Source of the DNA: Primula veris
Lineage: Eukaryota > Streptophyta > Magnoliopsida > Ericales > Primulaceae
DNA length: 64,000 bases
Reading direction: 5' to 3'
Assembly (NCBI GenBank): GCA_963682055.1
Contig: OY821749.1
Location: forward strand, 2,778,336 to 2,842,335
Part shown: positions 8,720-60,130 of the stretch, piece by piece
How the letters are laid out: the number at the start of each line of letters is the position of its first letter
How positions within the stretch are numbered: the first letter of the stretch is position 1
Position numbers and translations under genes: made by a program
The notes under the pieces: model-generated
What the model was told of the DNA's origin: nothing
Seen by the model: the letters and a program-made list of their open reading frames with translations, nothing else
Database searches by the model: none

Positions 8720-8729
8720 GGTATATATG
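8720..8729 (-). promoter_or_regulatory. Possible TATA box of the CIPK gene
   Basis: ACATATATAC on the minus strand lies about 190 bp upstream of the kinase start codon. Between them is a T/A-rich leader. Position and sequence fit a TATA element, but many AT-rich stretches would pass the same test. Confidence 0.35.
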
Positions 8730-8790
8730 TACATGTGTGTATAGAGGACAGCTGTTTATGGGGTAATAAGGAAATAATAATACTAATCTC

Positions 8791-9069
8791 AATCGAATTT
8801 TTTAAAAGTTAATGACATAGTTCAAATGTTAAACTATATAAACAAATTTTAAAATTTTATATTTCAACAATTTAGAAACGATATATTTGACGGTCAAATT
8901 TGCACGTAGATAACTCACTCTGTCCCAGAATACTGAGACTCTGTGTATTTACGTGCAACTTTGACCGGCAAATATATCGTATTTAAATTATTGAAATGTA
9001 AAATTTTTAAAAAAAATTCATATAATTTAACATTTAAACTATATGATTAATTTTTGAAAAATTCGATTT
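8791..9069. mobile_element. Inside-out composite of two Stowaway-like MITE pieces
   Basis: The segment is one long inverted repeat. Its outer arms are AATCGAATTTTTT and its reverse complement. Unlike the complete copies of this family, the terminal parts (GTCAAATTTGCACGTAG and CTCTGTCCC) meet in the middle near 8930, and the normal central part is at the outside. It looks like two truncated copies joined end to end. Confidence 0.6.
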
Positions 9070-9937
9070 CGACAGCATGTATATAAATTATTTATCAATC
9101 GAAATTATACGTGGAATAGGCCACATAAGCCATGAACTTTTACTGTTTTTTTGTTGGTTTTTGTTTTTGTTGAAAATACAAATATGTTATATATTAATTT
9201 TGAATCAAATACGAGCAGTGCCCACATTTGGTCTGTTAATTTTATAAGATACATGTTTTTTTCAACCACAATTCTATTCGGTAGCATCGTTTGGAAAGTG
9301 GATGTCATCGATACGACCCTCGATTTTTCATGGGTATTTTCACAAAAAATTTTGAAAACACCAATTATTAGATATCACTCGCCCCAATTGCACTACAGTT
9401 TTGCTCAAATTAATACGCTTTTATATTTTGAGGGTAACCATTTAACTTTATACTCATTTCAATTTTTCTATATTATCATCTCTATTCTGACTACCCATAT
9501 ATTTTATTCCTTTTTATTAACCTTTATGTCATTATTTTTACTTCTATTTTCCTTCTTTTCTCTACCTTTTAATAATGAATAATCATAATAATAATAATAA
9601 TAGAATTAGTAATATCAACTCTATCAGGTTTCTAAATACAGCATATTTAAAGAAAAATTCACATCAATTTGGTAATAAAGACCAAAGCAAGATGAACTTC
9701 ATTACTTCAGTAACATAACCACTATGATGAGTGATTTTAATTTTAAAAAAAGATATAAAAAAACAGTGAATGGACTAATATTATAATCAGAAGATGGTGA
9801 AGTTTGTATTGGAAGGAAGAGAATCCTTTAGTGTATATGAAGAATGATTCGAGCAGCAACATCAGTGTCTTCAAACTACCATACATTCTTTAATAAGGCT
9901 CGAACCTTTTAATTAAACTATTTTTAGCGGTTTATAG
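9070..9937. other. Intergenic, no supported gene
   Basis: A 143-codon open frame at 9151-9582 is hydrophobic and T-rich with no recognisable domain, so it was not called. No RNA gene was found. Confidence 0.45.
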
Positions 9938-9960
9938 CCCATTACGCTACTCGTAATGGG
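9938..9960. other. Perfect 9-bp hairpin
   Basis: CCCATTACG and CGTAATGGG are separated by a 5-nt loop. It stands alone with no gene next to it, so its role is unknown. Confidence 0.5.
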
Positions 9961-10375
9961 TTCAGCATGAGTCTAAGTACATACTATATAAACATATAAA
10001 CAAGAGGCATTATATGACTAGTGGATGTTATAACATGAGTCGGTTGTTAAAGTTGTAAGTTTGTTCCTTTCAAAATAAAAATAAAAAAATTGTAAGTTTG
10101 TTAAGGTCATTTAAAAATCACTCATAGTATGCGTGTGTGCTTCTTTTGTTTTCTTTATTTGGAAATTCAATCATTGGTAATTACTGATAATTTGGCATGC
10201 ATTACCTCATTTCATGGCATCTTAAAGAATATTTAGAAGTATAATTCCTTTTTTTGTATTTTAGTTTTACTAAATATGTCGAGCAATGTACATTTCTTAG
10301 TTGGTGCAAAGGAGGATGGTATTTTTGTCGAGAGTTTTGTCGTGAATGTTATATGCAATAATATTATTCATGCTG

Positions 10376-21376: not shown

Positions 21377-24269
21377 TATATTTCTTTTCCGAAAATTTTT
21401 TTTAACTAAAATAAGTTTTATATATTTCTGCAAATCCTTCAAGTTGGGAAGAATGGCTCTGATCGATGATATAAGGATTCAAGTTGAGTGGCTTTCACTT
21501 GCTCAATTTACAACATATGGAAGAAAAAGAAATTGCAGATTTCATGATGATAAATGTCATAGCTTAGATTATGTAACTGATAATTGTTGTTTTAAGATTA
21601 ATTGGGAACAAAAACCTAGGATTGATTCGATACGTTTTGTCAGTCGTTGATGTTGTAGTAAGCTGCATGAGCTTTCCTGTTTTTCCCCTTTTCTAATATA
21701 ATTATTTACTTTTTGGAAAAAAAGTTTGGATTAGGAGAAGTATGAGACCTAAACAGACCTGATTTTGGGTTAGGTCCAACAGACACGGGCCCAAAACCCC
21801 AAAAAAACGTATATTTTCAATGTCCCGTATGACAAAATATTAAATATATATATAATTCATTTACTTTCTCTAATTAATAGTTATCTATGATCAGGTGGTT
21901 GGTTTCCTTACTAAATAGTCTAAGTCAATCCGTGTTTGAGTTATTGCGGAGACAATAATTTGATTTTTTATTTCATTATATAATTTAATACATTAATGAA
22001 CCCTTTAATTTTATGTAAGTTTCTATGTGGTCTCTGTATTAAAGAAAACAGGAAAGAAACTGATTTGTTAAATATATAACAGATCTGGTCAATGATTTCA
22101 TTTTTAAAAATAGTATAATTTTAGCTCGAATGCGAAATTTGTAAAAAAAATGCTTCGTATCATTAATTTTTTTTTGTTAAATGTGCTCAACTTATTACAT
22201 CTAATATTTTCTAATTTAATATTTTACCATTTATTAATCGTATTTTATAAGCTTTATTTAAATAATTTTCTTTTACGGATAAAAAAAAACCCTCATTTTT
22301 AAGATAGACTAAGGCTCTCAAAACTCTAGAAACCATCTGGACATAAAATAATTAATGGGCCAAATGTAGTCATATATTGTAACATGAACTTGTATACGAT
22401 TCAATTGTTGGAGAAGTTAATATGATAATATTGATGATGAGCATAGCCTTGTCCAACAAAACTATAAGGTGCTGCTATTAATTCATAAATTACACCTACT
22501 GAAATTATGTAACAACCTTTTTGAAGTTGTTGTTGTATTACATGTCTACAATTTTATTTGAAAATTTTATGTATAACAAGCTAAGTGACGAATTCGTAGA
22601 TTGTGGGGTGTCTAATGTACTCTTAATAGCCATGTAACTCCAGCAACAATCCGGTACAAACAACTCTAGAGATGAGGGCTTTCAATGATACGATGCGTGC
22701 TCTCGATCTACTTTGTTGAGCAGCTATTTCCCTTCATCGTCGTTGAAATGTTTTGCTGTCATTTGTCATCCTTTTCAGATTTTCCTGAATGGAATTTGAT
22801 AATGATTGCCGCTAGTGTTTAGAGCTTCCACGAAGCTGCTAGCTAGGCAATATTATCGGAAGTTTGAGTTCCGTTATTGTATTTTTGCCCTTTTAAAAAG
22901 GCCATAATCAATTTTACACTTATAAATTAGAAGTTGAAACTCACAGACTGTTTGTAACAAATAGGGGTAGTGATGACGAATAGAGCTTATGTTTGTTTGT
23001 GTCGGGCTCGTGTAGACTATTCATGATTGATCAAGAAACGGAATATTGATGAGCCAAACACGAGTTTATTTACGAACAATTTATTTTACTTCAATTCTTA
23101 AATAAATCTAAGAAATGGTATTTATTCATATATATATATTTGACTAAGCCTTTTACATGAAAAGTATTATTTTAACTAGCTCATATTAATAAACGTTATG
23201 AACGGGAAGTTTGACGAGTCAAATACTTATAAATAGTTCATTTTAATTGAATCATTAAATAAGATGAGCAATGATATTTTTTTTCCTATAGAAAATTATA
23301 CGATTTAAAATATTAATATTATATCAATTTAGCTAAACCTTCTATGCCAAAATTATAATTTTAACTAACTCATTTAGTTTGACATTATATGACAAACATA
23401 ACTTACTTTCAACTGTTTATATTTTTCACCATTATTATATTAACCTTTTCAAATCATTTATTATATTATAAAGAAAAATATATTTATATATGTACTAGTG
23501 ATCAATCTAACAAACCGTAACTAATGATCAATTTGTTTACAAAATGATGTATTAGCCCAACATTAATTCACGAGTCAAACAAAGCACAATTAATTACAAA
23601 AACGACAAGTGCTTCATTAAACTTTAACCAATTAAATCTAAAAACGTGCCTTTATCAAACATAAAAGACAAATTTTAATATACTTTGCAACAAAAGAAAT
23701 AACAATTAACATCAAACTATATATGCTTATTTACTAGAAAAAGTAAAACCAAAATTAAATCCTATACTTAAGACTTAATCAAGAAACAAGAGTACCATGA
23801 CCAGAACGCGAATCGCTAATTTTTAATGTTTGCCAACCACAAAAGCTCAACACATATCATAGAATAAAAAAAAATAACTACATTTAAATTAATTAAAAAA
23901 AAAATTTGATTGGTCGACACATATTAAAATATAGTTTATAAAAAAAAAAAAAGACCAAAAGCTGTTTTATTTTAAATGTTAGGTCCCAAATGAACCCCTC
24001 TAAAAGTACTAACTTTATTATAACGGATAAACGTAATGTTACATAAAGTGAACAGGATACATAATACGTGCTAATGACGGTTTACTATAAATAAATCCGC
24101 CAACAAAACTATAATCCGTCAAAACGCATAAGAAAACCATCGCAATCGCTTTTTGTGTAGTGAAATCAACATGCTACCTAACAGATGCTAGAGCCTCAGG
24201 TGGAGTTACACCATAAACGAAACCAACTCCATAACCAATCGGTCCAAATCCTTACCCGTGAGCTTAGGG
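21377..24269. other. Intergenic, no supported gene; possible CACTA end near 24164
   Basis: A 97-codon frame at 21357-21650 begins inside the MITE and has no recognised domain, so it was not called. Near 24060-24164, CCGTCAAAACGC and ATCGCTTTTTGTGTAGTG look like a second CACTA-type right end (CACTACAC on the minus strand). Nothing else is recognised. Confidence 0.35.
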
Positions 24270-24580
24270 CTAAGTTTGGTCCGGTTCGATTCGATTCGAT
24301 TCAATTTTTGACAAAACTAAAACCGAGCAGATTTTTCGGTATGTTTTTTTTTCTTCCGGTTTTTGGTCTTTTGGACCGGACCGAACGGAACCGGATTGGT
24401 TCGGTCTTTCAGTTTTGTTCGGTTTTATTTTCAGTTTTTCGATCTTTTTCGGGCTTTTTCCGGTTTTTCGGTCCGGTTGTATTATAAACCGAAACCGACC
24501 TGAAAAAGTTTTAATTTTTTAGTTTCGATTTTTTTTGCTTTGGTTATCGATCGGTTCGGTTTTTTCGGGTTTTCGCGTGG
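24270..24580. repeat. GGTTCGGTTTT-rich dispersed repeat, copy 1
   Basis: Dense runs of GGTTCGG, CGGTTTT and ACCGAAACCGA. It shares the order of motifs (TTCGATTCGATT...TTGACAAAACTAAA...AAACCGAAACCGACC) with 61405-61660, and in reverse with 34060-34190. The 100-codon frame here is just this repeat translated. Confidence 0.65.
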
Positions 24581-24738
24581 CGGAAGCTTACCAAACCTCA
24601 CGTCTACTCTAGATCCCAAATTGCATTTATTTCCAAAATGGTTAGACCAAATAGCTACAAAAACTATTTCGTGATTTATATTAACACAAAAAACCCACCC
24701 AATTTTTTTGCAATCAAAGCCCTAAAATTGATATCTAA

Positions 24739-27700
24739 ATGGAAGGTATTAATCTAATCTCCTCAACTTATTCCGACGACGAAGACGACGAGATCGAAGA
24801 TCACCACGGCGGAACCCTAATTCCTGACCCCGACGCGGCGGCGGAAGGGGACACACCGAACGTTGCAGATATTGCTATTGAAAATCAAAATTCAATAATT
24901 GACGAAATTTCTCCTCAATTTATAGTGCATAGGTCTAGGCCAGTAACACCTCAGCTAATTCAACAAAAAGTTAATACAATTGTTGATTATGGTCATGATG
25001 AGCTTGCCATGTCACCTGACCATGAGGTTTGTATTTTTTTTTTAATTAAAAAAATACAGTATATATATATATATATAGCTGAGGTACATTCTCTTCTTTA
25101 TGGACTACAAATATGCTATAGTCTTAGACTTATTTATATTTGCGTAGAAGTGGATTTAAAAGCGTTGGTGGATTGGATTAAAAACTATGATAAAGCAGCA
25201 ATAAGTTTGTTAAATGCGTGGGATAGCATAATTTCCTTATTAGAGTGGCTAAGTAGTGATTTTTGTCATGTTTGGAGGAAGCAAAACCATGTAGCTGACA
25301 TGCTTGCTAAATACGGGAGTGAGGGTATAAATTACACATTCACAAAAGCTTGTGAACTACCTTCGAGAGTATATGTGGTATTCGTTTTGGGTGTGTTAGT
25401 AGTAGTTTTGGGGGTATTAGTCGTTTCGTTTTGGGTGTATTAGTGTATTTTTTTGGAATTAGTAGTTTTGGGTACTGGTAATTTGGAGTATTAGTGAGTA
25501 TTTGGGTATTGGTTATATTGGGTTTGGGTATTACGTCTTGTCCTTATATGCATATAATAAATATGGATCATAAAAAAGATTACATCTTTTAAATTACACA
25601 TTCACAAAAGCTTGTGAAAACTACTTTCGAGAGTTTATGGACCTTACTGCATGGATAAAATGGGCTTGCGTAGTTTCAGGCTCAAATAAATACCGCAAGT
25701 TTATGAGCTCTCTTGCTTTTTACTTAGTTTATAAAACAAGTAGTAATGTTGACACTTGTAAATTGTTGTTTCTAAGTTCTGGCATATACACAGCATTATA
25801 TAAGCTGTCGTTTTGTAGTTTTTGTTGTTGTTACAGGAATGCTAGTTTGTAATCTGGGTAAGGTCCCGTTTGGTGCAATAAAATTGTGGGGGTGCTGTCC
25901 CTCTTGCTTAAAAAAAATATAGTGTATATGTGTGTGTATTATTTTAACTGGGTTTTTACTACTCATTGAATTAGGTGTGTTTAATTTTGTTTTGATTACT
26001 AGTATTGGATAGTAGTATTGTCTGTTTGCCGACTGCTTTTTTCTGAACTTTTATATTTAAATCAGTGTTGTAAAATGTGAAATCTTAACTAAAACGTTTT
26101 TACAAAAGCTATGCCAAAAGCGTAAAAAGCGTAAGCTTTTAGCGGCCGATAAAGCGGAAAAGCGAGCTTTTAAGCTTTTTTGGAAGCTTTGAATCGAGCT
26201 TTTATCCAGGTTTTCTACTACCAAGTGCGCTTTGTTAAAGCAGTGATTTATTATATGTACATTCTTTTCTCTGGGTTTTTTCTCATTGAAGTATGTGTGC
26301 TTAATTTTGATATGATTAGTAGTATTGGATAGTAGTGCTGCTTTTTCTTAACTTCTATATTTATATTTTTATGTGCGTGTATATGTATATGTATATGTAT
26401 GTATGTAAGTATACAGTTTTCTATCTGGAGTTTTACTCATTGAGTTGTGTTGGGTTCAATTTTGTGTTGACTAGTAGTTTTGTGTATTAGTGGTATTCGT
26501 TTTGGGTGTGTTAGTAGTAGTTTTTGGGGTATTAGTAGTTTCGTTTTGGGTGTATTAGTTGTATTTTTTTGGAATTAGTAGTTTTGGGTACTGGTAATTT
26601 GGAGTATTAGTGAGTATTTGGGTATTGGTTATATTGGGTTTGGGTATTACGTCTTGTCCTTATATACATATATTGTGGATCATAAAAAAGATTACATCTT
26701 TTGGATAACAATAACATGGTGATAGAGCAAATTATGATAGTAGAATACCGCTACGATGAAGTTGCCATGGCACGTGAGCCCAAAGTATATCTATGTTTAT
26801 GTATGTATGTATATATAATAGGTATGGTATGTATGAATGATTCTTCTATCTGGCCTCTATGGTTTTACTCATTGAGGTTTTGTGGGTTTAATTTTTTGTT
26901 GCTTAGTAGTTTTGGTGTATCAGTGGTTTCGGGTGTTGGTACTTCTGGAAGTTTTGGGTAATACTGGTAATTTGGAGGTATTAGTAGTTTTGGGATATTA
27001 GTAAGGTTTTGGTTATTAATAGTTTTTTCGGTATTAGCTATATTGACTATTGAGATTGGGTATTACGTCTTGTCCTTAGTCTTATACATAGAATGCGGAT
27101 CATCAAAAAAGCTTAATCTTTTTGATAAATTTAACATGAGGTATATACTTTTTTCTTTTTTGTATTAGTACTTACGAAAATTAGCTGTTAGTAGTTTAAA
27201 GTAGTTGAACGATATACTTTTAAGAAAAATGTATCAAAACCTTTACTTAACAAGGTTAATTTGTGCCTCGGAATTATAAACAAATTTATATTTAGTTGGT
27301 CGAACGAACACACAATTCACTCGAAAAGAAAAAAATATAAAAAAGGTATACTTATGATCATCTGCTAAACAGGCCCGTCTGCTTGTTCCATAAATAGAAT
27401 GTCTCTCTTAACAAGCTAAGCTTTTAGAAGACATTAATATGGTTTTAGAGTAGGTAATTTTTAGGGTTAGAAATTGCAATCCCAACGTATGACAATTAAC
27501 AAAAATTACACTGAAATATGCCACAGGTGACAGGAAGTGTTTATTATATTTTATTATATAATGCGCATTTCTGTACAAGTTTGGGGTTTTAAACGAAATG
27601 ATAGCACGTCATGTACAAATATCATGGAACATGCTAGGCGTAACATTGTGTATTTACAATATAATGTGGCAGTGACACGTTTGTAAATTTGAGTGACAAT

Positions 27701-32170: not shown

Positions 32171-34059
32171 ATCACTTATTTTAAATTTTGAGAACCAAGG
32201 GTGTTTTCCCCCTACAACTTAAGTCGATGAGTTGGAGAGAGATCAGAGATGGGAATTCAATGTATACCAACATTTTTCTCGGAGTAGAGTGCTTAATTAT
32301 TGTTCAGATAATTTTTTTAAACTGAGTTAGAATAGACAGTTGTAGTTTACAACTCTATTTAGAGAGGTACTTTTATGTGGGAGCAAAACCACGATAACGA
32401 AGAACCTATATTAAAGTGTTCTATTTTGATGTAATTTTATATTAAAATTTTCAATACCAATAGTGTATAAATAATTTTATTTAAAAGTGCAGTTTTTATA
32501 TTTAGGACATGCTAATATCTTTTTAAAACTTACAACATTAATTGTATGATTATATTGGGTTAAATATATATTTATACACCTAATTATCATTCTTTTGCAT
32601 CCCAAATCAGCCATCTTTATGATTTTGTAATGCCAACTTATATTTACTTTTGATCAAGTACTAAAAAAGGGTTATTTGGCAATAACCTTCCATCGTTAAA
32701 CAATAAGCCTCCGTCGCTGAAAAATAGAGGACAAACAAAGACAAACTACTATATGCGTATTTGGCAATAAACTTTGCGAAGAACGAAAGTATCAGACCCA
32801 CTAAAATAAAGTCATTGTATTCTGAACTGTCGAAAAGACAACGATAATGTGACTTATGTTGAACGACCTATCTTTCTTCTAAAATGGGATGCTTTGTTAA
32901 CTGATTTTTTTGAAGTATTTTGGGAAGTCATGTTAAAAATTGCGGCAACTGTCCTCTGTTATGAAGTGGTGCATCCGTGCTCTACCATTTATAAAAAAAC
33001 TACTAAGTAGTCGTGTTCATCGACATCGACTACAAAAGTAATCTTGATTTTAGAAGTCCTTATCCTCTTTTAATCCTGAAGCAGCCTCGCTCCCATACGA
33101 CACTAAACTCTAAAGGTAACAGAAAAGTTCTTCGATAATATTCACGCATATACACTAGCAAGTTTATGAGTATTCAAAGTGTTCTAAAAAACGATTCTAA
33201 TCATTAGTCGAAGCCTAAAAGCCTATCAGATAATGTAAGATTACTACGATTAAGCGAAATTAGCTGGAATTAAGCGATAGCTGACCAATCTAAGTCCGTC
33301 AGCCTTTTAAAACACCGAATATACATGTATTACATATTTTATATTATGTCCATAAATATAACTCATTAACAGCATTCGCATCATTTTTTTCATCATTCTC
33401 CTTTAATTTGAAGTGAAATACATACTTTATTTGCTTTAACAACTCATTTTATTATAGTAAAATATACCAGTTTTCCTATCACTTACCTCGTTTTTTTTTA
33501 ATTGATTTATCTCTTTTATCAAAAAATTTATTATCATTTTACACTTGCATATATTTGGAAATGTCATAAAGTATGAAAGTCTTTATTTTAATATTATAAA
33601 TTTATAAGAAAATGAAGCATTATCTTGTATATAACGGAACCAACGCCTTAATATAAAAATAGGAGAACACGTAATGAATTTAATGCAAAGCAATTCTTGT
33701 GATAACATCTCGAGATATAATAGAATTATACAGTTTGGTGATTTCAAATATTCCATCCCTATTCTCTATTCCTTTCGTTTCCATTTGTTTATTTTATCCA
33801 AACAAAAATTCTAAAAAATTTAAATTTTTTTTATACAATTACTATAATACATGTATCAATACATTCCAATAATTATTTTTAAAAGAAAATGCACACGTAA
33901 TTTATTTTGGAATAAATGTATAAATTAGTGTAAATAAAACATTAAATCTTAAAAAAATTGTCTAAAACAATATTATGTCCACATATTTTAAAATTTGAAT
34001 ACAATATAATATAAAAACTTGTAAATTTGTGAAACAAGTTATGAAAATAAGGAAGAAGC
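32171..34059. other. Intergenic, no gene seen
   Basis: AT-rich DNA downstream of the HCNGP-like gene. A stretch at 33190-33310 has repeated GATTAAGCG-like motifs that may be an old transposon relic, not assignable. Confidence 0.4.
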
Positions 34060-34200
34060 CACGAAAGAGGACGAAAAAACCCGGTCTGGTTAAGTCCAAA
34101 AAATAAAAAGACCGAAACCGAAAAAAACCGAACCGAAAAATATGTTCGGTTTCAGTTTTGCTAAAAACCGAACCGAACCGAACCGAAAACGAAACAACAA
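34060..34200. repeat. GGTTCGGTTTT-rich dispersed repeat, copy 2 (reverse orientation)
   Basis: Runs of ACCGAAACCGAAAAAAACCGAA and AACCGAACCGAACCGAA are the reverse complement of the copies at 24270 and 61405. It ends about 40 bp before the telo-box of the RPL11 promoter. Confidence 0.65.
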
Positions 34201-34238
34201 AGGGGTAGTTTGGTAAATTGAACATCCCCATCCAAAGT

Positions 34239-34252
34239 AACCCTAAAACCCT
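34239..34252 (+). promoter_or_regulatory. Telo-box (AACCCTAAAACCCT) of the RPL11 promoter
   Basis: A double AACCCTA motif lies about 100 bp upstream of the start codon. Telo-boxes are established promoter elements of plant ribosomal-protein and other translation genes, usually close to the transcription start. Confidence 0.75.
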
Positions 34253-34260
34253 ACTTTTTT

Positions 34261-34281
34261 TTATATATATATATATAAATA
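34261..34281 (+). promoter_or_regulatory. TATA-rich core promoter of RPL11
   Basis: An alternating TA stretch follows the telo-box directly, and a CT-rich then purine-rich leader follows to the ATG at 34340. The short alternating tract could also be a simple repeat. Confidence 0.5.
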
Positions 34282-34339
34282 TACCAGTCTCTCTCTCTCT
34301 AAGTAAGAAAGAAAGAAAGAGAGAAAGAGAGAGATAGAA

Positions 34340-37752
<3,413 letters not shown>

Positions 37753-43777: not shown

Positions 43778-44276
43778 GATTTTAAAAACAAAGACAATTA
43801 AAATAAAATTAAGCGTTTTAAAGACAATTTTGGATTCTGAGTCACCTCATGACCCTGCTTCGGCAAAAAGGCAGGAAAAGAGTACTCATATTATAATATA
43901 TTATATATGCAAGGTGCAAACTTCAAAATGCAAAAAAAAAAAAGAAAAGAAGAAGATGGATTGTGAATAAAATTGCTTTTAACTTTATATAATTTATGGT
44001 CCCTATTTTGTGTAGTTATTGAGTTATACTGTACAATATATAGTCATTTTTACAACCATTAGATTAAAAAATAGAGGGTTATATTATACATTTTCAATAA
44101 CTAATTTAATTTTTTAAATTTTATTATATATTAGACAAATTATAATTTAATAAAAAAAAAATTACAACACAATAAAAAATCAAATAAAAATATAGAACCC
44201 AGTGAATAATATACTAAATTTAACTATTAATAAATTTTTTTTTAAAAATAACAATTAAATATTTATTTTTGAAAAG
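43778..44276. other. AT-rich intergenic DNA left of the LTR element
   Basis: No gene. The last five bases, AAAAG at 44272-44276, are the left target-site duplication of the retrotransposon. Confidence 0.5.
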
Positions 44277-44478
44277 TGTTGTAAGATTATTGGACTCTTG
44301 GGCTTTTACTTAATGGGCCCAGATGGGCTTGTAACCCTAACCCTCTATCTATATAAAGAGGGCTAGGGGTCTTGTATTTGACATTCCATTCATATTCATT
44401 CATAATAAAAGACTATACTGTTCCCCCTCTCTCTCTACTTCTGTCTCCCTAAATACATAGCTAATATGTTACACAACA
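44277..44478 (+). repeat. 5' LTR
   Basis: It begins TGTTGT and ends ACAACA, the usual TG...CA with a 6-bp terminal inverted repeat. It contains a TATA motif (CTATCTATATAAAGAGGG, about 44345-44362) and AATAAAAGAC near 44403, so promoter and polyadenylation signals are both present. Confidence 0.95.
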
Positions 44479-44492
44479 CGTTATCAGCACTT
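44479..44492 (+). promoter_or_regulatory. Primer-binding site, degenerate initiator-Met-tRNA type
   Basis: The sequence after the LTR, CGTTATCAGCAC, matches the usual copia primer site TGGTATCAGAGC at 8 of 12 positions, including TATCAG. The location is right; the exact tRNA is uncertain. Confidence 0.5.
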
Positions 44493-44553
44493 TGCTCGCA
44501 GAGAGTAGATATACGCTCACTGATATTGAATATTTTGAGTAAACGCACGGATT

Positions 44554-44585
44554 CCGGATATCAATAAACCTTGAGGTTTATCCGG
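44554..44585 (+). other. Leader hairpin downstream of the primer-binding site
   Basis: ATAAACC and GGTTTAT pair around a TTGA loop, with CCGG pairing CCGG outside across an asymmetric bulge. The position in the untranslated leader is where LTR elements keep packaging or dimerisation structures. That role is inference. Confidence 0.45.
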
Positions 44586-47500
44586 GTTTTATTGGGTTCG
44601 TTTCGATCTTCTACAAAATACGAGGTGTACGGTATAAGTTTTCTCAAATAACTGCATCTTTATATCACCATATTTCAATCACTGTTATATGAAGAAAAGA
44701 AAAACAACTGTGCAATTAATTGTTTCGGTAGATATGTATATAAGCAGCATGATAAGATTGTATGATTCTATTGAAAATATGCTTGCAACAAATAAAATAG
44801 AACTTGTGTTTTATAATATACCAACCGTAAATAATGTACAACCATGTATGTTGATGGTGATTGAATTGATATAGTATCACATGTTTAAAATTGTCACTGT
44901 AATTATTATCAAAAATATATGTACATGCAATATATGAAAATAATTCTTTGATAAATCTCAAACTGGTAAGACTTAACACTGTAATAATTCACTACGTATG
45001 AAAGTTCTTAAACATGCTTGAAAATTGAAAAAAAAAAAACCATATGTTTTAATCTGATGGACTGAATATGTAACTACCAAAAACTGTTGGACTAGTATGA
45101 AATCCACTGAAACTAATGGACTGACTTGTAATATCGCTAGAACAGCATACTCCCTTAAACTTAAAATTACATGTGTAGTCCCTGTAGTTTATTTCCTCCC
45201 TATTCAACAGTATATATCCTCGAATCTGTTAATATTTGGTCAATCCATGCGAAATTGAAACTTGTTAATGTAATTAGTCAATTACCATAACCTACTGTTT
45301 GTTTCTTGCATGTTGTAATTACCATAAATATAATTTATACTTAGGGATATGAATATTTATGAGATAAATCTTGCTAAGTAATTCGGTAATTACCATAATA
45401 ATTTGATTTCTTGCATGATACAGTGTATTTAGTAAACTAGCATGTATAGAACTTGCATGTAAATTGTATAACGATAATTAAAATTTACCTTCCCTGTATG
45501 TGATATGGTAAATTAGTAATTAAATATACTGCTCCCCTGCATGTCGTAATTATCATGAATAAAATTTAGATTGATGTATTGTATTAGATATTGCTAAGTG
45601 TGATTTAGAATATCTTGTTATAATATGTACTACAGCAGGTACAATTTAAATAATTATATTTATCACTACCATGTTTACAATATGGAAATTTGCGAAATCA
45701 TATATATTCACATTTAAGTTGGAAAAATTATGAACCTTCCCTAAATAGGCTCACCTATTTGGATACGATGTCTAGGAAAGATATAGGCGGAAGTCGATAT
45801 CCTAATGAGGTCGGGTTTTAAGTGGCATTCGTGCCCTCCACCCTCACCGTCTTTCCTGGTCGTTTTTCAAGTAGAGCTACCGAAAGGGGTTGACTAAATA
45901 ATAATTTCCCCGAGTGTGTTTATATAGTGATGTATGTTTCGCCGAATTGGTGTCTCTGTATCGACCTGTCGTTCGATCAATGAGAACCTATTCACATTAC
46001 AAGCAAAACTATTTTTCGAACCTGTCGTTTCGAAATAAAGTTTATGATTGTGCAAACCATAAACATATAAACCAGTCGTTTTATATGATAAATAATCCAG
46101 AACTCCCAACACATGTTGGATGCCATCTATGATGAGAAAAATCGTAAAAACATACTTGCGAAATGACTGTTTAAACGTTGATTTTAATCCGTCACCACAT
46201 GTTACTCACCCTGATGTGTGAAAATGTGATGCCCAAAAATTTTTTTTGGATGCCATCTTTGATGAGTAAAACACGAGTTTGTTGTTACTCACCCTCGAGA
46301 TGAATGCTAAGGCGTTGATTTTATTCCGCCGCCACATTTGAGACGCGATGACGTCTATGGTGAACAAATGTCTGAAATTGACATATTGGAGCTATCCTTC
46401 ACAAAAATACTAGCTTGGAAATTGTATTCCATAAGCAGTATCGTGAATTTATATTCACAATGTTCCTTTATCGCCCATCTGTTATTGGATAAAAAAAAAA
46501 AATTACCCCGGTGAGTAGTTTTAATCCTATTGGGTCAATGGCAAATTGTTTGCCTGATATTAATGCTCTTCGTGTATATTTTTTTTCACGAATCGAGAAC
46601 CGAGACAAGTGTTATTTGCCTTGAACTGTCGCGATCCCGATGAATCGCCTAGCCAAGCGAGATTTTAGACAATCGTCAAAATCGAAAACCTGTGGCTCCA
46701 AGACAGTAATTGAAAGGAACAATATGACACGTTGTCACAAAGCAAGATATAATGCTCAAGGAGCCAACTCTATGCTATAAAGACAAAGGTCATGCACGGT
46801 TACTCCTTAAATAGTTCACAACTATTATAAAGGTGGAAAAACCGATGCTAATGTGGTTAAAGTTAATTGAAAGGAAACTATTGAGACCCCCGATTTTGTG
46901 GCTCAAATGAGTTGATACCTTTCTTTATTGATTTTGATAAATCATTGAGCCATTTTTTCGCTCATCTGGATTATGTTTTTCCATTTGGATTATGATTTTT
47001 CCATTTGGACATACTTTTGGATTATGGTTTGCCTGTTTACGAAATTTCTCGAAATAATTTAAAGTGTTTTGAGCAAATTCCTTTGACAAATGTGACCAAA
47101 CTTTAAATTATGAAATTTTAGGCAATACTTGTGGTGTAGTTGGTTTTTTAGAAATAGTGGGTAACAGTGTACCACATAATTTCACCAACTATTTGCCTAA
47201 AAGAGTACTCAGTGACAACGATTCTGGACCTGTCGTTCCAAATCGAAATCTTTGGTAAAACCAAATTGATTTGTCAAGTATGAGGTCTTATACTCATGTA
47301 GGTCCTGCCGTACCTTGTTGAGTTATAAAATATTCGAGAAAACCAGTGTTACCTGGTAATAGCTCATGAAATAATTAAATTTCTTTACATAGCCTCCATT
47401 CAATACGATCAAAAACGTATTTTAGAGGAGTTGAAATGTCTTTCAAGTGGTTGCTACCACATTTTTAAAGTATTTAAAGTTACCTTATCATTTCGCCTGT

Positions 47501-47799
47501 CGTCGAAATGATAAATGATTTAGATGCTAAGACATGATTGTCTGTACTATCATTCGCCTGTCGTCGATTGATAAGAGCATTTTGATATTGTGGCATTGAC
47601 CGGATGAGATATTCCCGGGTCAAAAGACGATGCTTGATTTATAATCGCATCGCATTTGGATTTTATCTGAGAATATATTTCGCGATTAATCCGAAATTCA
47701 TGCCATTAATGCTCACTTTGAAAGACCAGTATGTGTAAAGATCACGAAATGAACTCGTAGAATTCTTGTAAAGAATTGAAGGAGTTATTGTGGACTTAT

Positions 47800-48260
47800 C
47801 CAACCATAAGACGGACCATAAATATAAATGGTTATGGTTGATGCATCGACAATAGGTCACATGATTATTGTTGTCCACAGAAATGCAGTATTTTCCAAAC
47901 TTTTAGCCCTATCATTAAGTTGATGGCTCATGATCCGGATTATCCTGAAAAGTCTAGTTGACTTGATAATTCCAAAGAGTAAAAAATCGAAATTTTGATT
48001 TGAATTACTTGAGTTTGGAAATTGAAATTGAACATCCTGTCGATTATGTTCAGACCCAAAATGGACTCACGGAAAGCTTGATGATGCGACTGCAAATGAT
48101 TGCACGCATTTCTTGGTCTTGCGCACCAAGATTTATATTTCCGTATGGGGTTATGCTATTTTGCTGCATTGGTCCGTCATGAGGCCCATAGATACTCAAA
48201 CACCATATGCGTACCAGCTGGTTACTGGTTATGAGCCAGAAGTCTCATATTAACGCGTGT
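47800..48260 (+). pseudogene. Broken copia integrase
   Basis: Recognisable pieces in order: LVDAST-like (47838), AHDPDYPEK (about 47929), EHPVDYVQTQNGLTESL (48030-48080) and QLVTGYEPEVS (about 48217). These match the integrase core and its downstream HTQNG block of plant Ty1-copia elements. Frameshifts and stops lie between the pieces. Confidence 0.85.
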
Positions 48261-49139
48261 TTAGAGTGATTAATTAATATTTTGATTGAGCCGTTCTAGC
48301 GTTCAAAATATGGACCTCTGAAGGGGACATAAGTCGATTATGAATCTCCTGCCTATCATTTGATAGAGTAACCTTGGCAAGCGATTTCTTTACCGCATGA
48401 TATGCGAAAGTGACATCGCTAAGACTGTTCTCCCCGTCGTTAGGGGGAGATTTGCACGTTACCGTTGATAAGGAACGACGTGAAGTAACGTGGCATAACC
48501 CACTCAGTCTTAGCTTGATCCCAAAACTGCACTTAGTGATAAGTAAGTGCATAGACTCCCTCAAGTCTAACTAAATGCCAGACGCATTTAATGACTTTAT
48601 AAGATGTCACGAGATCATTTATACCTGCTGCAAAATGCTTGCAAGGATAGACGTCCCTGTCGGACGCCGTGTTCCATTCGTAACACGTTGCTTTGGCCGA
48701 ACCCGCCAAGCAAAGGACGCTGCCGTCGGCCGTCAGTCTTTCGTCCTTCCCAAGATACGAGGAAGTTGACCGGTTCCAAATTCGTTCAGCCCCAGAGGTG
48801 GTGAACTGAAACTCGTTTGTCACACGAGATTATAAAGGATCAAGGAGATGTGTGATTTCCTCCTCATCCTAAGAATCTCGAAATATCTGTCGATCATGAT
48901 ATCTTAGACGATATTGAAGCGAAACGAGACTGTCATTGATTACTTGTTCATATATTCGGTGACGACTGATAATATGAACAAATTATGACAGAGAACCATG
49001 TACCGTTGCCTGAAGTCAACGTAAAATAGACTGTACTAATGGAAACTTGCAATCCAAGTAGACTCCTTAGCGAAAGTGTGTTCGGACCTGTAGTTCCAAC
49101 ACCACCAATGTTAAACGAGTTCGTTTATTTGGTTATTCG

Positions 49140-50260
49140 TAAGGAAAATTGATGAGAATAATGAGATTGTAGAATGCTCGCCTAGTAGCGCAAGGCTTCT
49201 CTCACACCTTGGAATTGATTACGAGATGGTTGATTTCCTCAAAATGGACATTATAATAGTCCCCTACTTTACCAGTTTAGTAGTTTCCAGAAAACTGAGT
49301 ATGCAGCCATGAATGTGGTCACGGTTTTATCTCTATGGGGATTTAGACAAAGAGATGTAGATGAAGGTCCCTGTGTGACTTCATAATGCTTGAATCAAGT
49401 AATTCCTGACCATGGAACACGATCTCAATTAAATGAGACGTTCACTATATGGATTAATATAATCCGAGCGGATGTGGTATACCGCCTAAGTGAGTACTTG
49501 ATTAGCTTGGGATACTTGAACAAGTATTATGCCCTTGCGTGTTTTATTACGCGATCCATTTTTGGATTTGCCTTCGAGATGAAGGATATTGGGAAGACAC
49601 GGTAGTGACTCAACCTGATGATTGAGTCCCGTAAATATTGAATCTAAGTCCTTGATTCAGACTACACCCAGAAGGTGTTATGACGTTTTAGTCATCATGA
49701 CGCTAAGTCGTCAGATTCTCCCATGATCGTTCGATCACTAGACATTGATATAGACCCAGTCCGTCCCTGATGAGACGATGAAGAGATATTGAACCATAAT
49801 GTTCATATCTAAGTACAATAAGCGCATCATTGTACTTGGTCTAATGTGCTAGGACGAACATCTCGTCTGTTGTGAATGGTATAGCTCGACACAACATCGC
49901 GCTAACATGCTGCCATCGAAATGGCACTAAAGACACATTCCCTTACCTTATGGTAATTTTGGAAGTGGGCTAGTTTATCCCATTTGCGTCATCGAGTGTA
50001 CCTACCCCCTTCGGTACTCGAATTAACGCAACCCTTTTTCGGTTATACCGATGCCGGTTACTTATCAGACCCGCATAAGGGATATTCCTAACATGGTATG
50101 TCTTTACCATTAGGAATAAGGCGACATCTTGGAGGTCTTGAAATGACTCCAAGTGAATCACTCTGATCTATTCGTGCTCTATGAGACGACTAGAGAGTGT
50201 ATATGGCTTCGAGCTAGTATTAGTCATATTTGAATTACATATGTTCTGTCTCACGATCCA
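49140..50260 (+). pseudogene. Broken copia reverse transcriptase and RNase H
   Basis: ARLVAQGFS (near 49170), YRLSEYLISLGYLNK (about 49480-49525), GFA-FEMKDIGKT (49567-49603), IVRSLDIDIDP (about 49726-49760), GYTDAGYLSDPHKG (about 50040-50080) and LYETTRECIWLRAS (about 50177-50218) follow the normal order. The segment that should carry the catalytic YVDD is deleted between GFA and FEMKD. Many stops are present, so it is non-functional. Confidence 0.88.
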
Positions 50261-50559
50261 GATAAAACACTTGTCATAGAAGACAACTTGTTGTTATTGA
50301 TCAAGAGAGACATGACTACATTATGCTATTTAGCATTTCTCGCCGAAATTAATCTTCACAAATGAAGTTTAAGAGCATCCAGTTGAATGCTCGTTCTATT
50401 CCACATTAGATTTTCTTGCATCCAGTCGTATGTAAGTAAATGAGGCATCCAGTCGAATGCTCGTACTCTTTCTTGGAATATGAAATCTTCGCACCCTGTC
50501 GTGTGCAAGTGAGGGGGAGCATCCAGTCGCATGCTCGTGTACTCTTTTTGTCCTTAGAC

Positions 50560-50953
50560 CAAGGTTTTTTCCCACTGGGTTTTCCTTGACAAGGTTTTTA
50601 GCGAGACACGTTCCTATCATATCTCACTTAAGATTGCCGAAATTAGGGGGAGTATCCTGTTGTATACTTCTTACCACTGTGTACTCTTTTGTCCTTCGAC
50701 TAGAGATTTTTTCCCACTGGGTTTACTCTAGCAAGGTTTTGATGAGGCACCTGTTTTGTGGTTGATCCCTACTACTACCATTGTTGCACTCTTTTTTCCT
50801 TCAATCAGAGATTTTCCCATTGGGTTTGCTCTGACAAGGTTTTGATGAGGCACACTGTTTTGTGGTTAGTTACTTACATGATATTTCGGCCTATATCATT
50901 CGGCAACACAGTTTCTCCTAGGTACCGGTTTTGTCCCACACTGGGTTTTCCGG
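50560..50953 (+). repeat. Four spaced stem-loops with covarying stems upstream of the polypurine tract
   Basis: Each unit has a stem around a loop with TTTT-TCCCA-TGGG-TTT. Stems: 50560-50588 CAAGG/CCTTG; 50700-50731 CTAGAG/CTCTAG; 50805-50834 TCAGAG/CTCTGA; 50925-50953 CCGG/CCGG. After units 1-3 comes CAAGGTTTT; after units 2 and 3 also GATGAGGCAC. The loop is constant while both arms change together, which points to selection for the folded form or an ancestor under it. Confidence 0.75.
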
Positions 50954-51034
50954 CCTTAAGGTTTTTATGTGTTTAGCACTGCGAATGAACTCGACTCAGA
51001 TCGACTGCATGAAGACGAAGAATTCAAGACGTCC

Positions 51035-51044
51035 AAAGGGGGAG
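51035..51044 (+). promoter_or_regulatory. Polypurine tract
   Basis: AAAGGGGGAG abuts the first base of the 3' LTR, as the plus-strand primer of an LTR element must. AGGGGGAG also occurs at 48442-48449, 50512-50519 and 50645-50652 in the interior. Confidence 0.9.
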
Positions 51045-51246
51045 TGTTGTAAGATTATTGGACTCTTGGGCTTTTACTTAATGGGCCCAGATGGGCTTGT
51101 AACCCTAACCCTCTATCTATATAAAGAGGGCTAGGGGTCTTGTATTTGACATTCCATTCATATTCATTCATAATAAAAGACTATACTGTTCCCCCTCTCT
51201 CTCTACTTCTGTCTCCCTAAATACATAGCTAATATGTTACACAACA
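51045..51246 (+). repeat. 3' LTR
   Basis: Identical to the 5' LTR wherever I compared them, 202 bp. Its TATA motif lies around 51113-51130, in the same orientation as the PPR gene that starts 95 bp after the LTR. Confidence 0.95.
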
Positions 51247-51340
51247 AAAAGTAAATTTTATCAATTATTTAGCTATTTATATTTTCCCGCTATCTCTATA
51301 TCCACACAAATCTGGTAAATTAGTTTGTGAGAATAGAAAC

Positions 51341-53560
51341 ATGTTATTAATAATACCCAAAACCCCAATAAAAAATTGGGTCTTTTGCCATTCTCACACA
51401 CAACACTCTTTTAATCACACTAATTCCTTTGTTTTCTTCAAAAAAAATTCAGTTAGTTTTAATGTAGTTTCATATATCAAAACCCAAATTCCCGATTCGC
51501 TTTCTCGGACCTTAAATGAATCCGTTACGGAATATGATATCGAAATCCGCAAGTTTTGTGATGTGGGTAACTTAGAAAAAGCCATGAATTTGGTTACCCA
51601 ATCGAAAAGATCGAATCTTGAGGTCGCAACTTATTGCGCATTGTTGCAGCTTTGTGCTGAGCTCAAATGTCTTAAGACTGGTGTTAAAATCCACGTAATT
51701 ATTAAATCAAATGGCGTTGAAATCGGTAGTGTTTTGGGTTCGAAGCTCGTGTTTATGTATGTAACTTGTGGGGATTTGAGGGAAGGGAAAAGGGTTTTCG
51801 ATAGTATTGCGAATGAAAAGGTTTTTCTTTGGAATATGATTATAAACGAGTACGCGAAAAATGGTTTTTATGATGAGGGTATTGATTTGTATAGTAAAAT
51901 GCAATGTTTCGGTGTAGGACCGAATTCTTATACTTTTAGTTCTGTTTTAAAGTGTTTTTCTGGTGAAGGGAATGTAATTGAAGGCGAAAGGGTTCATGGG
52001 TATCTAGTGAAATTGGGTTTTAGTAATGCTGATGTAATAGTTGTGAATTCTTTAATAGCTTTTTATTTCAAATGTGGATGTGCCGAGAGTGCTTTTAAGG
52101 TGTTTGGTGAAATGGGTGAGAAAGATGTAATAACATGGAATTCGATGATTAGTGGATTTGTGGCGAACAAGTTAGCTGAAAAGGGTGTAAGAATTTTTGT
52201 ACAAATGCTAATTTTGGGGATTAAAGTGGATTTGGTTACGATGCTTAGTGTTGTTACAGCTTGTGTTAGTATAGGCATTGTGTTATTGGGTAGAGCTGTT
52301 CATGCATATGCGATAAAATTCGGGCTTGAAAATGATGCAAGCTTTAAGAACAGTGTAGTAGATATGTATTCCAAATGTGGCGACATTGATTCTGCAACTC
52401 GAGTTTTTGAAACCATGGATGAAAAATGTGTTGTGTCGTGGACTACGATGATTTCGGGATATGTTAAACATGGGTTATCGGATAAAGCAATGCTACTATT
52501 TGATGATATGAGAAAAGAAGGGATTAAGTTGGATCCTTTTATTGTTACGAGTGTTCTTCATGCGTGTGCTTGTGTTGGCTCGTTGGAAAAAGGTAAAGAA
52601 GTGCACAATTACATCAAGGATAATCATATGCACTTAAATTTATCTGTTTCTAATGCTCTCATGGACATGTATGCAAAATGTGGGAGCATGGAAGAAGTTC
52701 ATTTGATATTCTCTCAGATGACTACAAAAGATATATTATCATTTAATACTTTAATTGGAGGTTACTCGAAAAACAATTTTCCCAATCGTGCACTTTATTT
52801 GTTCAAAGAAATGCAACGACAACTAAAACCTGATGGTGTTACAATGGCATGTGTACTTCCAGCTTGTGCTAGTCTTCGGGATTTAGATGGAGGTAGAGAA
52901 ATTCACTGTCACGTATTGAGAAATGGGATTAAGGGAGGTATATTTGTTGATAATGCACTTGTTGATATGTATGCGAAATGTGGTGCTTTAGATGCAGCAA
53001 GGTCATTGTTTGATATTATTTCAAGAAAAGACTTGGTCTCGTGGACGGTTATGATTTCTGGTTATGCAATGAATGGTGAAGGAAATGAAGCTATTTCTAC
53101 CTTTAACGAGATGAAGAAAAGAGGTATTGAGCCCGATGAATGTTTTTTTCTATCTACATTATATGCTTGTAGCCATTCAAGATTGGCTGATGTGGGTTGG
53201 AGATTCTTTAATATCATGAGAAGTGTTTGCAATATAGAGCCGAAATATGAACACTATGCTTGTATGGTGGAACTTTTTTCCAAATCGGGGAAATTATCAA
53301 TGGCGTATGAGTTCACTGAGAAAATGCCTATGAAGCCAGATGCTACAATTTGGGGTGTTTTGCTATGTGGATGTAAAATACACCATAATGTAAATTTGGC
53401 GGAAAAAGTAGCTGATCGTGTGTTCGAAATTGAGCCCGATAACATGAAATGCTATCTAACTTTAGCTGATATATATGCTGAGGATGAGAAGAGGGTAAAG
53501 GGGAGAAAGACTAGCCAGAAAATTAGTCGTAGCTTAAAGAAGAACCCTAGTTGGACTTAA
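51341..53560 (+). CDS. DOT4: DOT4-like PLS-type pentatricopeptide repeat protein, DYW domain lost
   Basis: An intronless 739-residue PPR protein with a run of P, L and S repeats (for example VVSWTTMISGYVKHGLSDKA, NALMDMYAKCGSMEE, DLVSWTVMISGYAMNGEGNEA) and an E motif (MPMKPDATIWGVLLCGC, NLAEKVADRVFEIEPDN). It closely follows Arabidopsis DOT4 (At4g18750), a plastid C-to-U editing factor, including the N-terminal block YCALLQLCAELKCLKTG. DOT4 continues from KKNPGCSWIEIKG into E+ and DYW domains; here LKKNPSWT is followed by a stop, and the region before it is scrambled (EKRVKGRKTSQKISRS). Without DYW it could bind RNA but would need a partner to edit. The N-terminus could be a transit peptide. 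The start is the first ATG after the LTR insertion; any original upstream promoter has been displaced by 7 kb. Confidence 0.88.
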   Translation: MLLIIPKTPIKNWVFCHSHTQHSFNHTNSFVFFKKNSVSFNVVSYIKTQIPDSLSRTLNESVTEYDIEIRKFCDVGNLEKAMNLVTQSKRSNLEVATYCALLQLCAELKCLKTGVKIHVIIKSNGVEIGSVLGSKLVFMYVTCGDLREGKRVFDSIANEKVFLWNMIINEYAKNGFYDEGIDLYSKMQCFGVGPNSYTFSSVLKCFSGEGNVIEGERVHGYLVKLGFSNADVIVVNSLIAFYFKCGCAESAFKVFGEMGEKDVITWNSMISGFVANKLAEKGVRIFVQMLILGIKVDLVTMLSVVTACVSIGIVLLGRAVHAYAIKFGLENDASFKNSVVDMYSKCGDIDSATRVFETMDEKCVVSWTTMISGYVKHGLSDKAMLLFDDMRKEGIKLDPFIVTSVLHACACVGSLEKGKEVHNYIKDNHMHLNLSVSNALMDMYAKCGSMEEVHLIFSQMTTKDILSFNTLIGGYSKNNFPNRALYLFKEMQRQLKPDGVTMACVLPACASLRDLDGGREIHCHVLRNGIKGGIFVDNALVDMYAKCGALDAARSLFDIISRKDLVSWTVMISGYAMNGEGNEAISTFNEMKKRGIEPDECFFLSTLYACSHSRLADVGWRFFNIMRSVCNIEPKYEHYACMVELFSKSGKLSMAYEFTEKMPMKPDATIWGVLLCGCKIHHNVNLAEKVADRVFEIEPDNMKCYLTLADIYAEDEKRVKGRKTSQKISRSLKKNPSWT

Positions 53561-59619: not shown

Positions 59620-59859
59620 TGCTCCGTCCGTTCCTATTTAATTGTCTATTACGAAATTACGTACAATTTTGACCGGCCAATAACTTATATCAAAATTATC
59701 GGAATGAAAATTTTCAAAAGTTGATAATATAGTTCAAATGTTAAATTTTATGATTAGATTTTAAAAAAATTCATTTCGACAATTTTTATATAATTTATAA
59801 ACCGATCAAAATTGCACGTAGTTTCGTAAGGGACAATTAAATGGTAACGGATGGAGTAG
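59620..59859. mobile_element. Stowaway-like palindromic MITE
   Basis: The ends are GCTCCGTCCGTTCC and GGTAACGGATGGAGTA. The inner mirrored blocks are ACGTACAATTTTGACCGG / ACCGATCAAAATTGCACGTA and TATCAAAATTATCGGAATG / CATTTCGACAATTTTTATA. Confidence 0.85.
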
Positions 59860-59891
59860 AAAAAACAATATGGTTCGGCTCAAAAACTACT

Positions 59892-60130
59892 TACTCCGTG
59901 GTTGTTTAATTGTCCATTACGAAATTACGTGTAATTTTAATCGGTCAATAATTTGTATCAAAATTGTCGGAATGAATTTTTTTAAAAGTTAATCGATATA
60001 GTTTAAATGTTAAATTTTATGATTATATTTTTAAAAAATTTATTTCGATAATTTTAATACAAGTTATAAGCCGGTCAAAATTACACGTAGTTTCGTAATG
60101 GACAATTAGATGTGAACGGACAACAGAGTA
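59892..60130. mobile_element. Stowaway-like palindromic MITE, second of a pair
   Basis: Same layout as the copy 33 bp to its left: TACTCCGTGGTTGTTTAATTG at the start and GTGAACGGACAACAGAGTA at the end, with GTAATTTTAATCGGTC / GCCGGTCAAAATTACACGT inside. Confidence 0.85.

Follow-up and report, generated by a model that had tools for sequence, protein, structure and literature searches.

A gene-less LTR retrotransposon of Primula veris carries an array of hairpins that share one eight-nucleotide loop on unrelated stems

Results

The 64,000-nucleotide stretch of Primula veris DNA analysed here (contig OY821749.1 of assembly GCA_963682055.1, positions 2,778,336 to 2,842,335; hereafter the window) contains a long terminal repeat (LTR) retrotransposon at window positions 44277-51246. 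The body of this element carries an array of hairpins that have one loop in common, the 8-nt motif CCNGNNGW, on stems that differ from site to site. The two 202-bp LTRs are identical and have the ends TGTTGT...ACAACA (TG..CA). The framework of the element is as follows.

44272..44276 (left) and 51247-51251 (right), no strand: target site duplication AAAAG (sequence comparison)
44277..44478, + strand: 5' LTR, 202 bp, same sequence as the 3' LTR (LTR comparison)
44479..44490, + strand: expected position of the primer binding site, CGTTATCAGCAC, without a TGG start (sequence)
44491..45959, + strand: 5' internal part, A+T-rich, without motif hairpins (motif scan, folding)
47970..48253, + strand: pol-like remnants in two frames, copia integrase by eye (eye reading only)
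51035..51044, + strand: polypurine tract AAAGGGGGAG, just before the 3' LTR (sequence)
51045..51246, + strand: 3' LTR, 202 bp (LTR comparison)

The longest stop-to-stop frame lying fully within the element encodes 103 amino acids on the minus strand, so there is no open gag-pol. The identity of the LTRs points to a recent insertion, and an element with no genes would have to be mobilised by proteins made elsewhere. It is a young, non-autonomous LTR retrotransposon, and the remnants suggest that it is probably of copia descent. The copia label is a reading rather than a test, because database searches gave no confirmation: seven pieces of the element matched no pol family in Pfam at E<=1, and no protein database homologues were found for the short pol pieces (queries of 70 and 73 amino acids). 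Pfam matches to DUF3149, Viral_cys_rich and HRDE1_NRDE3_N fell under the cut-off and were treated as chance. Because CGTTATCAGCAC follows the 5' LTR without a TGG start, a primer site of the common tRNA-Met type is not present here. In the TAR group of copia, self-priming has been reported (PMC6317226). Within the first 400 nt of the element there is no good self-priming partner for the primer site, the best self-complement being 8/12.

The octaloop hairpins and their closest variants all lie on the + strand of the element.

45960..45977, +: octaloop hairpin, stem ATCGA, loop CCTGTCGT (motif scan)
46014..46035, +: octaloop hairpin, stem TTTCGAA, loop CCTGTCGT (motif scan)
46064..46087, +: octaloop hairpin, stem CATATAAA, loop CCAGTCGT (motif scan)
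46206..46221, +: octaloop hairpin, stem TCAC, loop CCTGATGT (motif scan)
46499..46522, +: octaloop hairpin, 8-bp stem including one G-U, loop CCCGGTGA (sequence)
46631..46648, +: octaloop hairpin, stem GCGAT, loop CCCGATGA (motif scan)
47225..47240, +: octaloop hairpin, stem TGGA, loop CCTGTCGT (motif scan)
47300..47315, +: octaloop hairpin, stem AGGT, loop CCTGCCGT (motif scan)
47485..47514, +: octaloop hairpin, perfect 11-bp stem TTATCATTTCG, loop CCTGTCGT (motif scan)
47548..47573, +: octaloop hairpin, 9-position stem with one T.T mismatch, loop CCTGTCGT; arms similar to those of the 47485 hairpin
48029..48052, +: related hairpin, 7-bp stem TGAACAT, 10-nt loop CCTGTCGATT, within integrase-like codons
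48230..48249, +: octaloop hairpin, stem TATGAG, loop CCAGAAGT, within pol-like codons (motif scan)
48668..48687, +: variant octaloop hairpin, stem CGTGTT, loop CCATTCGT
49004..49021, +: octaloop hairpin, stem CGTTG, loop CCTGAAGT (motif scan)
49084..49097, +: weak octaloop hairpin, 3-bp stem GGA, loop CCTGTAGT
49607..49628, +: octaloop hairpin, stem GACTCAA, loop CCTGATGA (motif scan)
49762..49777, +: octaloop hairpin, stem CGTC, loop CCTGATGA (motif scan)
50373..50392, +: octaloop hairpin of the 3' cluster, stem GAGCAT, loop CCAGTTGA
50415..50436, +: octaloop hairpin of the 3' cluster, stem CTTGCAT including one G-U, loop CCAGTCGT
50445..50460, +: octaloop hairpin of the 3' cluster, stem GCAT, loop CCAGTCGA
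50491..50506, +: octaloop hairpin of the 3' cluster, stem GCAC, loop CCTGTCGT
50517..50536, +: variant octaloop hairpin of the 3' cluster, stem GAGCAT, loop CCAGTCGC
50651..50668, +: octaloop hairpin, stem AGTAT, loop CCTGTTGT (motif scan)

The window has 41 CCNGNNGW sites on its + strand and 19 on its - strand; the element holds 25 and 2 of these, respectively. A perfect stem of at least 4 bp surrounds 16 of the 41 + strand sites, all of them within 45960-50668, and none of the 19 on the other strand. Beside the 25 + strand sites of the element, the remaining 35 in the window (either strand) include none with a perfect 4-bp stem. Outside the element, 4/4 proximal pairs form at none of the 16 + and 17 - sites, and 3/4 at one per strand.

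The size of the array depends on its definition. Perfect stems of at least 4 bp (4-11 bp observed) give 16 hairpins; at least three of the first four pairs are present at 20 of the 25 sites; adding two hairpins with 6-bp stems and variant loops, CCATTCGT (48674) and CCAGTCGC (50523), makes 22; and the 10-nt-loop hairpin at 48029-48052 brings the number to 23. An initial annotation of this DNA, made by reading the sequence, had put the family at 17 or more, a figure that the strictest definition misses by one and the others surpass. Its seven quoted stems are all present as written, it rightly described the stems as unrelated, it had noticed the motif nowhere else in the window (short of an exhaustive scan), and of the two loops that it named as most frequent the first suits the description better than the second: CCTGTCGT is found on 6 hairpins, and CCAGTCGT on 2.

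These shared-loop hairpins are confirmed to lie far beyond chance. Of 200 dinucleotide shuffles of the element—the control that the initial annotation had proposed—194 contained no motif hairpin, 6 contained one, and none contained more. To offset the reader's choice of motif, we also scored every 3-position loop signature in loops of 4-12 nt in a motif-free control. The top signature in the real sequence was C1-C2-G7 in 8-nt loops, with 18 hairpins, against a maximum of 8 over 200 shuffles; in seven other stretches of equal length the top signature had 5-10 hairpins and was A/T-only in five. No signature at the other loop lengths exceeded 6 hairpins, so that the 8-nt class alone has a shared signature. 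Motif hairpins are absent from six equal-length stretches to the left of the element and from one to the right. The exact form CCWGTCGW occurs 10 times on the + strand of the element, never on its - strand, and nowhere else in the window on either strand. Chance, composition and dinucleotide effects are thus ruled out by the shuffles, together with order-1 to -3 models and a slid-partner control, both described next.

Loop and stem are closely coupled. The + strand of the element has 78 CCNNNNGN sites. At least three of four proximal pairs form at 20 of the 25 that have G4 and W8, compared with 7 of the 53 that do not. Split further, the fractions are 14/17 for G4 with T8, 6/8 for G4 with A8, 1/9 for G4 with C or G at position 8, and 6/44 without G4. 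At the 25 CCNGNNGW sites, which were not selected for stems, positions 1-4 of the stem are Watson-Crick in 21, 23, 21 and 19 cases, and this pairing sum of 84 drops to 15-34 once the partner is displaced by one to four bases in either direction. Beyond the element, these four positions are paired in 17/64 cases at the 16 + sites and in 18/68 at the 17 - sites. The motif itself is also in surplus: 25 copies of CCNGNNGW on the + strand of the element compare with 7.5, 6.2 and 8.3 expected under order-1, -2 and -3 models, and the 10 exact CCWGTCGW with 0.25, 0.36 and 0.83. The 5 motif sites without a stem of at least 3/4 pairs are within the chance expectation, and two of these, 48036 and 48433, sit in hairpins of different register. 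Because the motif excess resides in the stemmed sites, it is the hairpin with its loop that has been multiplied, and not the loop alone or hairpins alone.

The stems are free to vary. The 5-nt arms of the 19 CCNNNNGN sites with 4/4 pairs have a mean identity of 1.5/5, comprise 17 distinct sequences and show no constant core. Self-BLAST (E<=0.01) connects five octaloop hairpins of the 3' cluster and no others, on which ground a dispersed cassette is rejected; the hairpin at 50651-50668 is joined to the cluster by its preceding GGGGGAG, not by self-BLAST, and the neighbouring hairpins 47485 and 47548 also look related by duplication when compared by eye. GGGGGAG at 50513-50519 and 50646-50652 overlaps the 5' arms of two octaloop hairpins, and a similar run lies in the polypurine tract (51038-51044).

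Among the six 3' hairpins 94.4% of cells pair, and four of six pairs have changed on both sides. Their covariation is 0.556, compared with 0.260 +- 0.075 in shuffles that ignore the relatedness of these hairpins; 0 of 500 shuffles reached it, and slid versions gave at most 0.211. The five hairpins linked by self-BLAST behave similarly (93.3% of cells pair, 3/6 pairs changed on both sides, covariation 0.467 vs 0.215, reached by 0/500).

A second class of hairpin lies at 50552-50961, upstream of the polypurine tract. Each of its four copies is preceded by CCTT or CCTA and followed by AAGG; the loop, built around CCCA..TGGG, is conserved, whereas the stems differ and compensate. Covariation in this class is given by direct reading, with no count, because alignment put the stems out of register.

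50552..50594, +: copy 1, CCTT..AAGG around the stem CCAAGG/CCTTG, loop including CCCACTGGG (direct reading)
50693..50736, +: copy 2, stem CTAGAG/CTCTAG (direct reading)
50798..50839, +: copy 3, stem TCAGAG/CTCTGA (direct reading)
50917..50961, +: copy 4, stem CCGG/CCGG, loop including CCCACACTGGG (direct reading)

Hairpins with other loops are in excess as well; neither they nor the second 3' class figured in the initial annotation. For stems of at least 6 bp in 45900-50700, the counts are 13 vs 3.3 expected at loops of 3-4 nt, 11 vs 1.3 at 8 nt and 42 vs 20.5 at 9-25 nt. The excess fades with longer spacing; there is none in the right flank or far to the left, and a weaker one, at some lengths, in the A/T-rich left flank. 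Stems of at least 7 bp exceed shuffles inside the element (8 vs 1.3 in 46001-48000; 7 vs 0.85 in 48001-50000) and elsewhere too (18 vs 4.5 in 8001-10000; 11 vs 2.0 in 24001-26000; 11 vs 2.3 in 34001-36000), and some of these latter stretches contain long inverted repeats. Since several other 2-kb stretches exceed their shuffles, a general excess of stems is not special to the element.

The hairpin region folds well beyond its surroundings. In 48 windows of 150 nt the mean folding z-score is -1.50 for the sense and -2.02 for the antisense strand, whereas the flanks range from -0.29 to 0.05; the 5' internal part gives -0.39 and -0.59 (17 windows from 44200).

Several other candidates were rejected. 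No Rfam family matched 44000-51500 at E<=1, which leaves the hammerhead without support, although its CTGATGA core is present in some loops. Kissing between the exact loop and its complement within the same RNA finds no partner, as the complement of CCWGTCGW occurs nowhere in the element. Two matches from a viral contig collection were taken as chance: one retrieved with the integrase-like piece (L001) has frames that look bacterial or phage-like by eye, and one retrieved with a 5'-LTR-end pattern (L002) is a phage-like contig with 15 motif sites over its two strands and no stem of at least 4 bp. A pattern of the 3' hairpins had no match in that collection.

The frame to the right of the element encodes a pentatricopeptide repeat protein. 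Among the matches listed (best 120 of 5105) are many plant DOT4 proteins, and the closest named match by identity is from Camellia sinensis (63%), in keeping with a flowering-plant host. Elsewhere in the window, 34904-35126 has terminal inverted repeats of 50 nt that are 84% complementary and is presumably a Stowaway-type miniature inverted-repeat transposable element (MITE); 8791-9068, perhaps also a MITE, holds nested inverted repeats that are 66-68 nt long and 82-88% complementary; and 59627-59993 contains two direct repeats of 99 nt with 83% identity, 268 nt apart from start to start.

Discussion

We propose that loop and stem have been selected jointly as a repeated recognition site, and we put the probability of this at about 0.65, counting together the forms in which the site acts in RNA, in complementary DNA (cDNA) or through a host factor. 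We favour joint selection because the surplus of the motif is found in hairpins and because pairing is kept while stem sequences change; the second 3' class, read directly, likewise keeps its loop on changing stems. On this proposal the recognition hairpin, of which the body of the element would bear some 22 copies, is a stem of any sequence, roughly 4-11 bp long, under C-C-N-G-N-N-G-W. The hairpins may act as multiple weak candidate sites for a trans-acting protein, most likely the Gag of an autonomous partner, whose cooperative binding could lead to capture and packaging of the gene-less RNA. Capture and packaging in trans by such a Gag is the likeliest form of the proposal, argued by analogy with viral systems, and we rate it at somewhat less than an even chance. 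It is favoured because the element is young and non-autonomous, and hence would have moved with borrowed proteins. Dispersed packaging signals have been proposed to act in this way in certain RNA viruses and in hepatitis B virus (HBV), itself a reverse-transcribing virus, whose core protein meets the same RGAG loop motif on several stem-loops (PMC8677749).

A number of observations weigh against joint selection in this form. There are no motif hairpins in the 5' 1.5 kb of the element, whereas the packaging determinants of Ty1 are near its 5' end and up to 5 kb of its interior can be deleted (PMC4974528). The same source expects scattered sites to contribute to Ty1 and Ty3 packaging and describes the packaging sequences as not clearly defined; because the hairpins avoid the 5' 1.5 kb, auxiliary sites are a better fit than a classical 5' signal. 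The covariation comes from only five or six related hairpins in one copy of the element, and their further pair types are unremarkable against shuffles (equalled in 60/500 for six hairpins and 113/500 for five). Moreover, the antisense strand is on average the better folder (p 0.004). With RNA parameters and 200-nt flanks, 16/22 hairpins form with a probability above 0.5 on the sense strand and 19/22 on the antisense (16 vs 17 with 100-nt flanks), and with 75-nt flanks the proximal pairs fall below a probability of 0.2 in 6/22 sense and 2/22 antisense hairpins. A site acting in sense RNA would be expected to tolerate G-U pairs. Yet interrupted stems are not in excess (G.T 4 vs 6.3 expected, A.C 4 vs 5.3), and the single non-pairs within octaloop stems are 5 G.T, 4 A.C and 7 others.

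The remaining evidence on G-U tolerance makes the case for sense-strand action mixed. At the first mismatch beyond stems of at least 6 bp with loops of 3-12 nt (39 stems), G.T makes up 20.5% vs 11.6% in shuffles and A.C 10.3% vs 17.2%; for stems of at least 5 bp (110 stems) the preference is gone, with G.T at 15.5% vs 17.7%. Together, the strand and G-U results argue against a simple reading in sense RNA and keep alive two rivals, template switching and a role in cDNA. Of the initial annotation's two suggestions, a recurring RNA site for a protein gains from the joint selection of loop and stem, with the protein binding itself still inferential, and loses in that most comparisons do not show the sense strand folding better than the antisense. 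Its other suggestion, mutational inverted copying, fits stems that are nearly all Watson-Crick and show no consistent G-U preference, but has to contend with a motif that is itself multiplied.

In that mutational account, a short-range switch of template, whether in reverse transcription or in DNA replication, copies a flank as its reverse complement and so yields a perfect local hairpin, and the loop motif is simply a favoured place for the switch. Such events have been proposed to make perfect stems in one step, compensatory changes included (PMC8794818), and stems that are nearly all Watson-Crick, with no excess of G.T- or A.C-interrupted ones, agree with this. So does the excess of perfect stems of at least 6 bp at loops of 3-4 and 9-25 nt, hairpins that lack any shared loop signature (checked for loops of 4-12 nt). 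However, switching would add stems to motifs already there rather than multiply the motif, which is present 25 times where 6-8 are expected, and in its exact form 10 times where less than one is. Nor does it explain why the shared signature is restricted to 8-nt loops (18 hairpins, compared with at most 6 at any other length) or why the motif is one-stranded in the element, with 25 + and 2 - sites. We regard template switching as unlikely, though it is the most serious of the alternatives. We consider it next to impossible that the array is due to chance, to composition or to the duplication of a single hairpin cassette: the 3' cluster and, by eye, the neighbouring hairpins 47485 and 47548 do look duplicated, but no shuffle gave more than one motif hairpin, self-BLAST links no other octaloops and the arms are unrelated.

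Two further accounts are both improbable in our estimation, the second slightly more so. In the first, a non-coding RNA would be under general selection to be compact and locally folded, much as satellite RNAs and viroids are. This might protect the transcript from silencing or nucleases or serve a host double-strand-RNA-binding protein, with a loop suited to a host factor. The folding z-scores of the hairpin region and the excess of stems at many loop lengths agree with this, and if C2 and G7 of the octaloop pair, an NGNN tetraloop results, with G at its second position in 21/27 paired CCNNNNGN sites. The yeast RNase III Rnt1p prefers NGNN (PMC4334505). Compactness alone, however, leaves the single loop sequence unexplained, and other stretches of the window have a hairpin excess without a common loop; Rnt1p, for its part, comes from yeast, and in the Primula hairpins a C.U or C.A mismatch sits directly under the putative closing pair. 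In the second account, the hairpins might work in first-strand cDNA while it is single-stranded, with the loop as 5'-WCNNCNGG-3', for example as a nucleocapsid or integrase site or a pause for second-strand synthesis. Under DNA parameters with 12-nt flanks, antisense hairpins form at least as well as their sense counterparts in 22/22, and the mean strand difference is matched by 1% of 104 random loops. In longer flanks, the hairpins above 0.5 number 21 antisense vs 18 sense of 22 with 100 nt, and 20 vs 19 with 200 nt. Against this account, 12% of 115 random loops match the difference with RNA parameters, and the 22 hairpins amount to about one observation because nearly one loop is common to all.

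Returning to joint selection, its fullest version is a tentative one that we hold to be less likely than not, and somewhat less likely than packaging by Gag: an LTR retrotransposon lineage that lost its genes may have been reshaped by selection into a satellite-like RNA, its address spelled out about 22 times by the same loop on stems that can be exchanged. This would be a dispersed packaging-signal system whose loop code, CCNGNNGW, is legible in a genome sequence. The finding bears on how gene-less retrotransposons are chosen and copied by the proteins of others, and as any plant genome can be scanned for the loop, the question is testable by alignment and by loop removal. Should template switching have made the hairpins, its traces would be preserved in this element at an unusual natural density.

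Comparison with known systems

The nearest element classes include the plant non-autonomous LTR retrotransposons LARD, TRIM and Cassandra. Like them, the Primula element has LTRs, a polypurine tract and a target duplication, lacks usable genes and would be mobilised in trans; unlike them, it has pol-like remnants and a hairpin array. Retrozymes are likewise non-coding plant retroelements with important RNA structure (PMC4918200), but here there is neither a hammerhead nor any other Rfam family at E<=1. Sireviruses, a copia lineage, also have palindromic repeats in their non-coding parts, and most of their motifs keep a CGG-CCG core (PMC2829016), whereas in our element the palindromic arms are free and it is the loop that is constant.

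RNA hairpins made by template switching share the perfect stems and compensatory changes (PMC8794818), yet switching alone would not be expected to give many sites one loop sequence. The G2-loop (NGNN) hairpins of yeast Rnt1p (PMC4334505) resemble the octaloop if C2 and G7 pair; they differ in that the stem here is broken by a mismatch under the closing pair, and in kingdom.

No shared-loop hairpin array in an LTR retrotransposon appeared among the matches listed on retrotransposon hairpins and packaging, which covered titles and abstract openings with few subscription papers and so are not proof of absence. A close likeness is to the dispersed packaging signals of satellite tobacco necrosis virus (STNV), MS2 and HBV, in which several stem-loops per genome have a common short loop motif, such as AXXA in STNV (PMC3662417) and RGAG in HBV (PMC8677749). 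The Primula element has the same combination of several hairpins, a common loop motif and free stems. It differs in being a gene-less LTR retrotransposon with a loop fixed at 8 nt and mostly perfect stems, and capsid binding is transferred to it by analogy. Loop-coded recognition hairpins are thus known as a kind; their setting in an LTR retrotransposon looks new.

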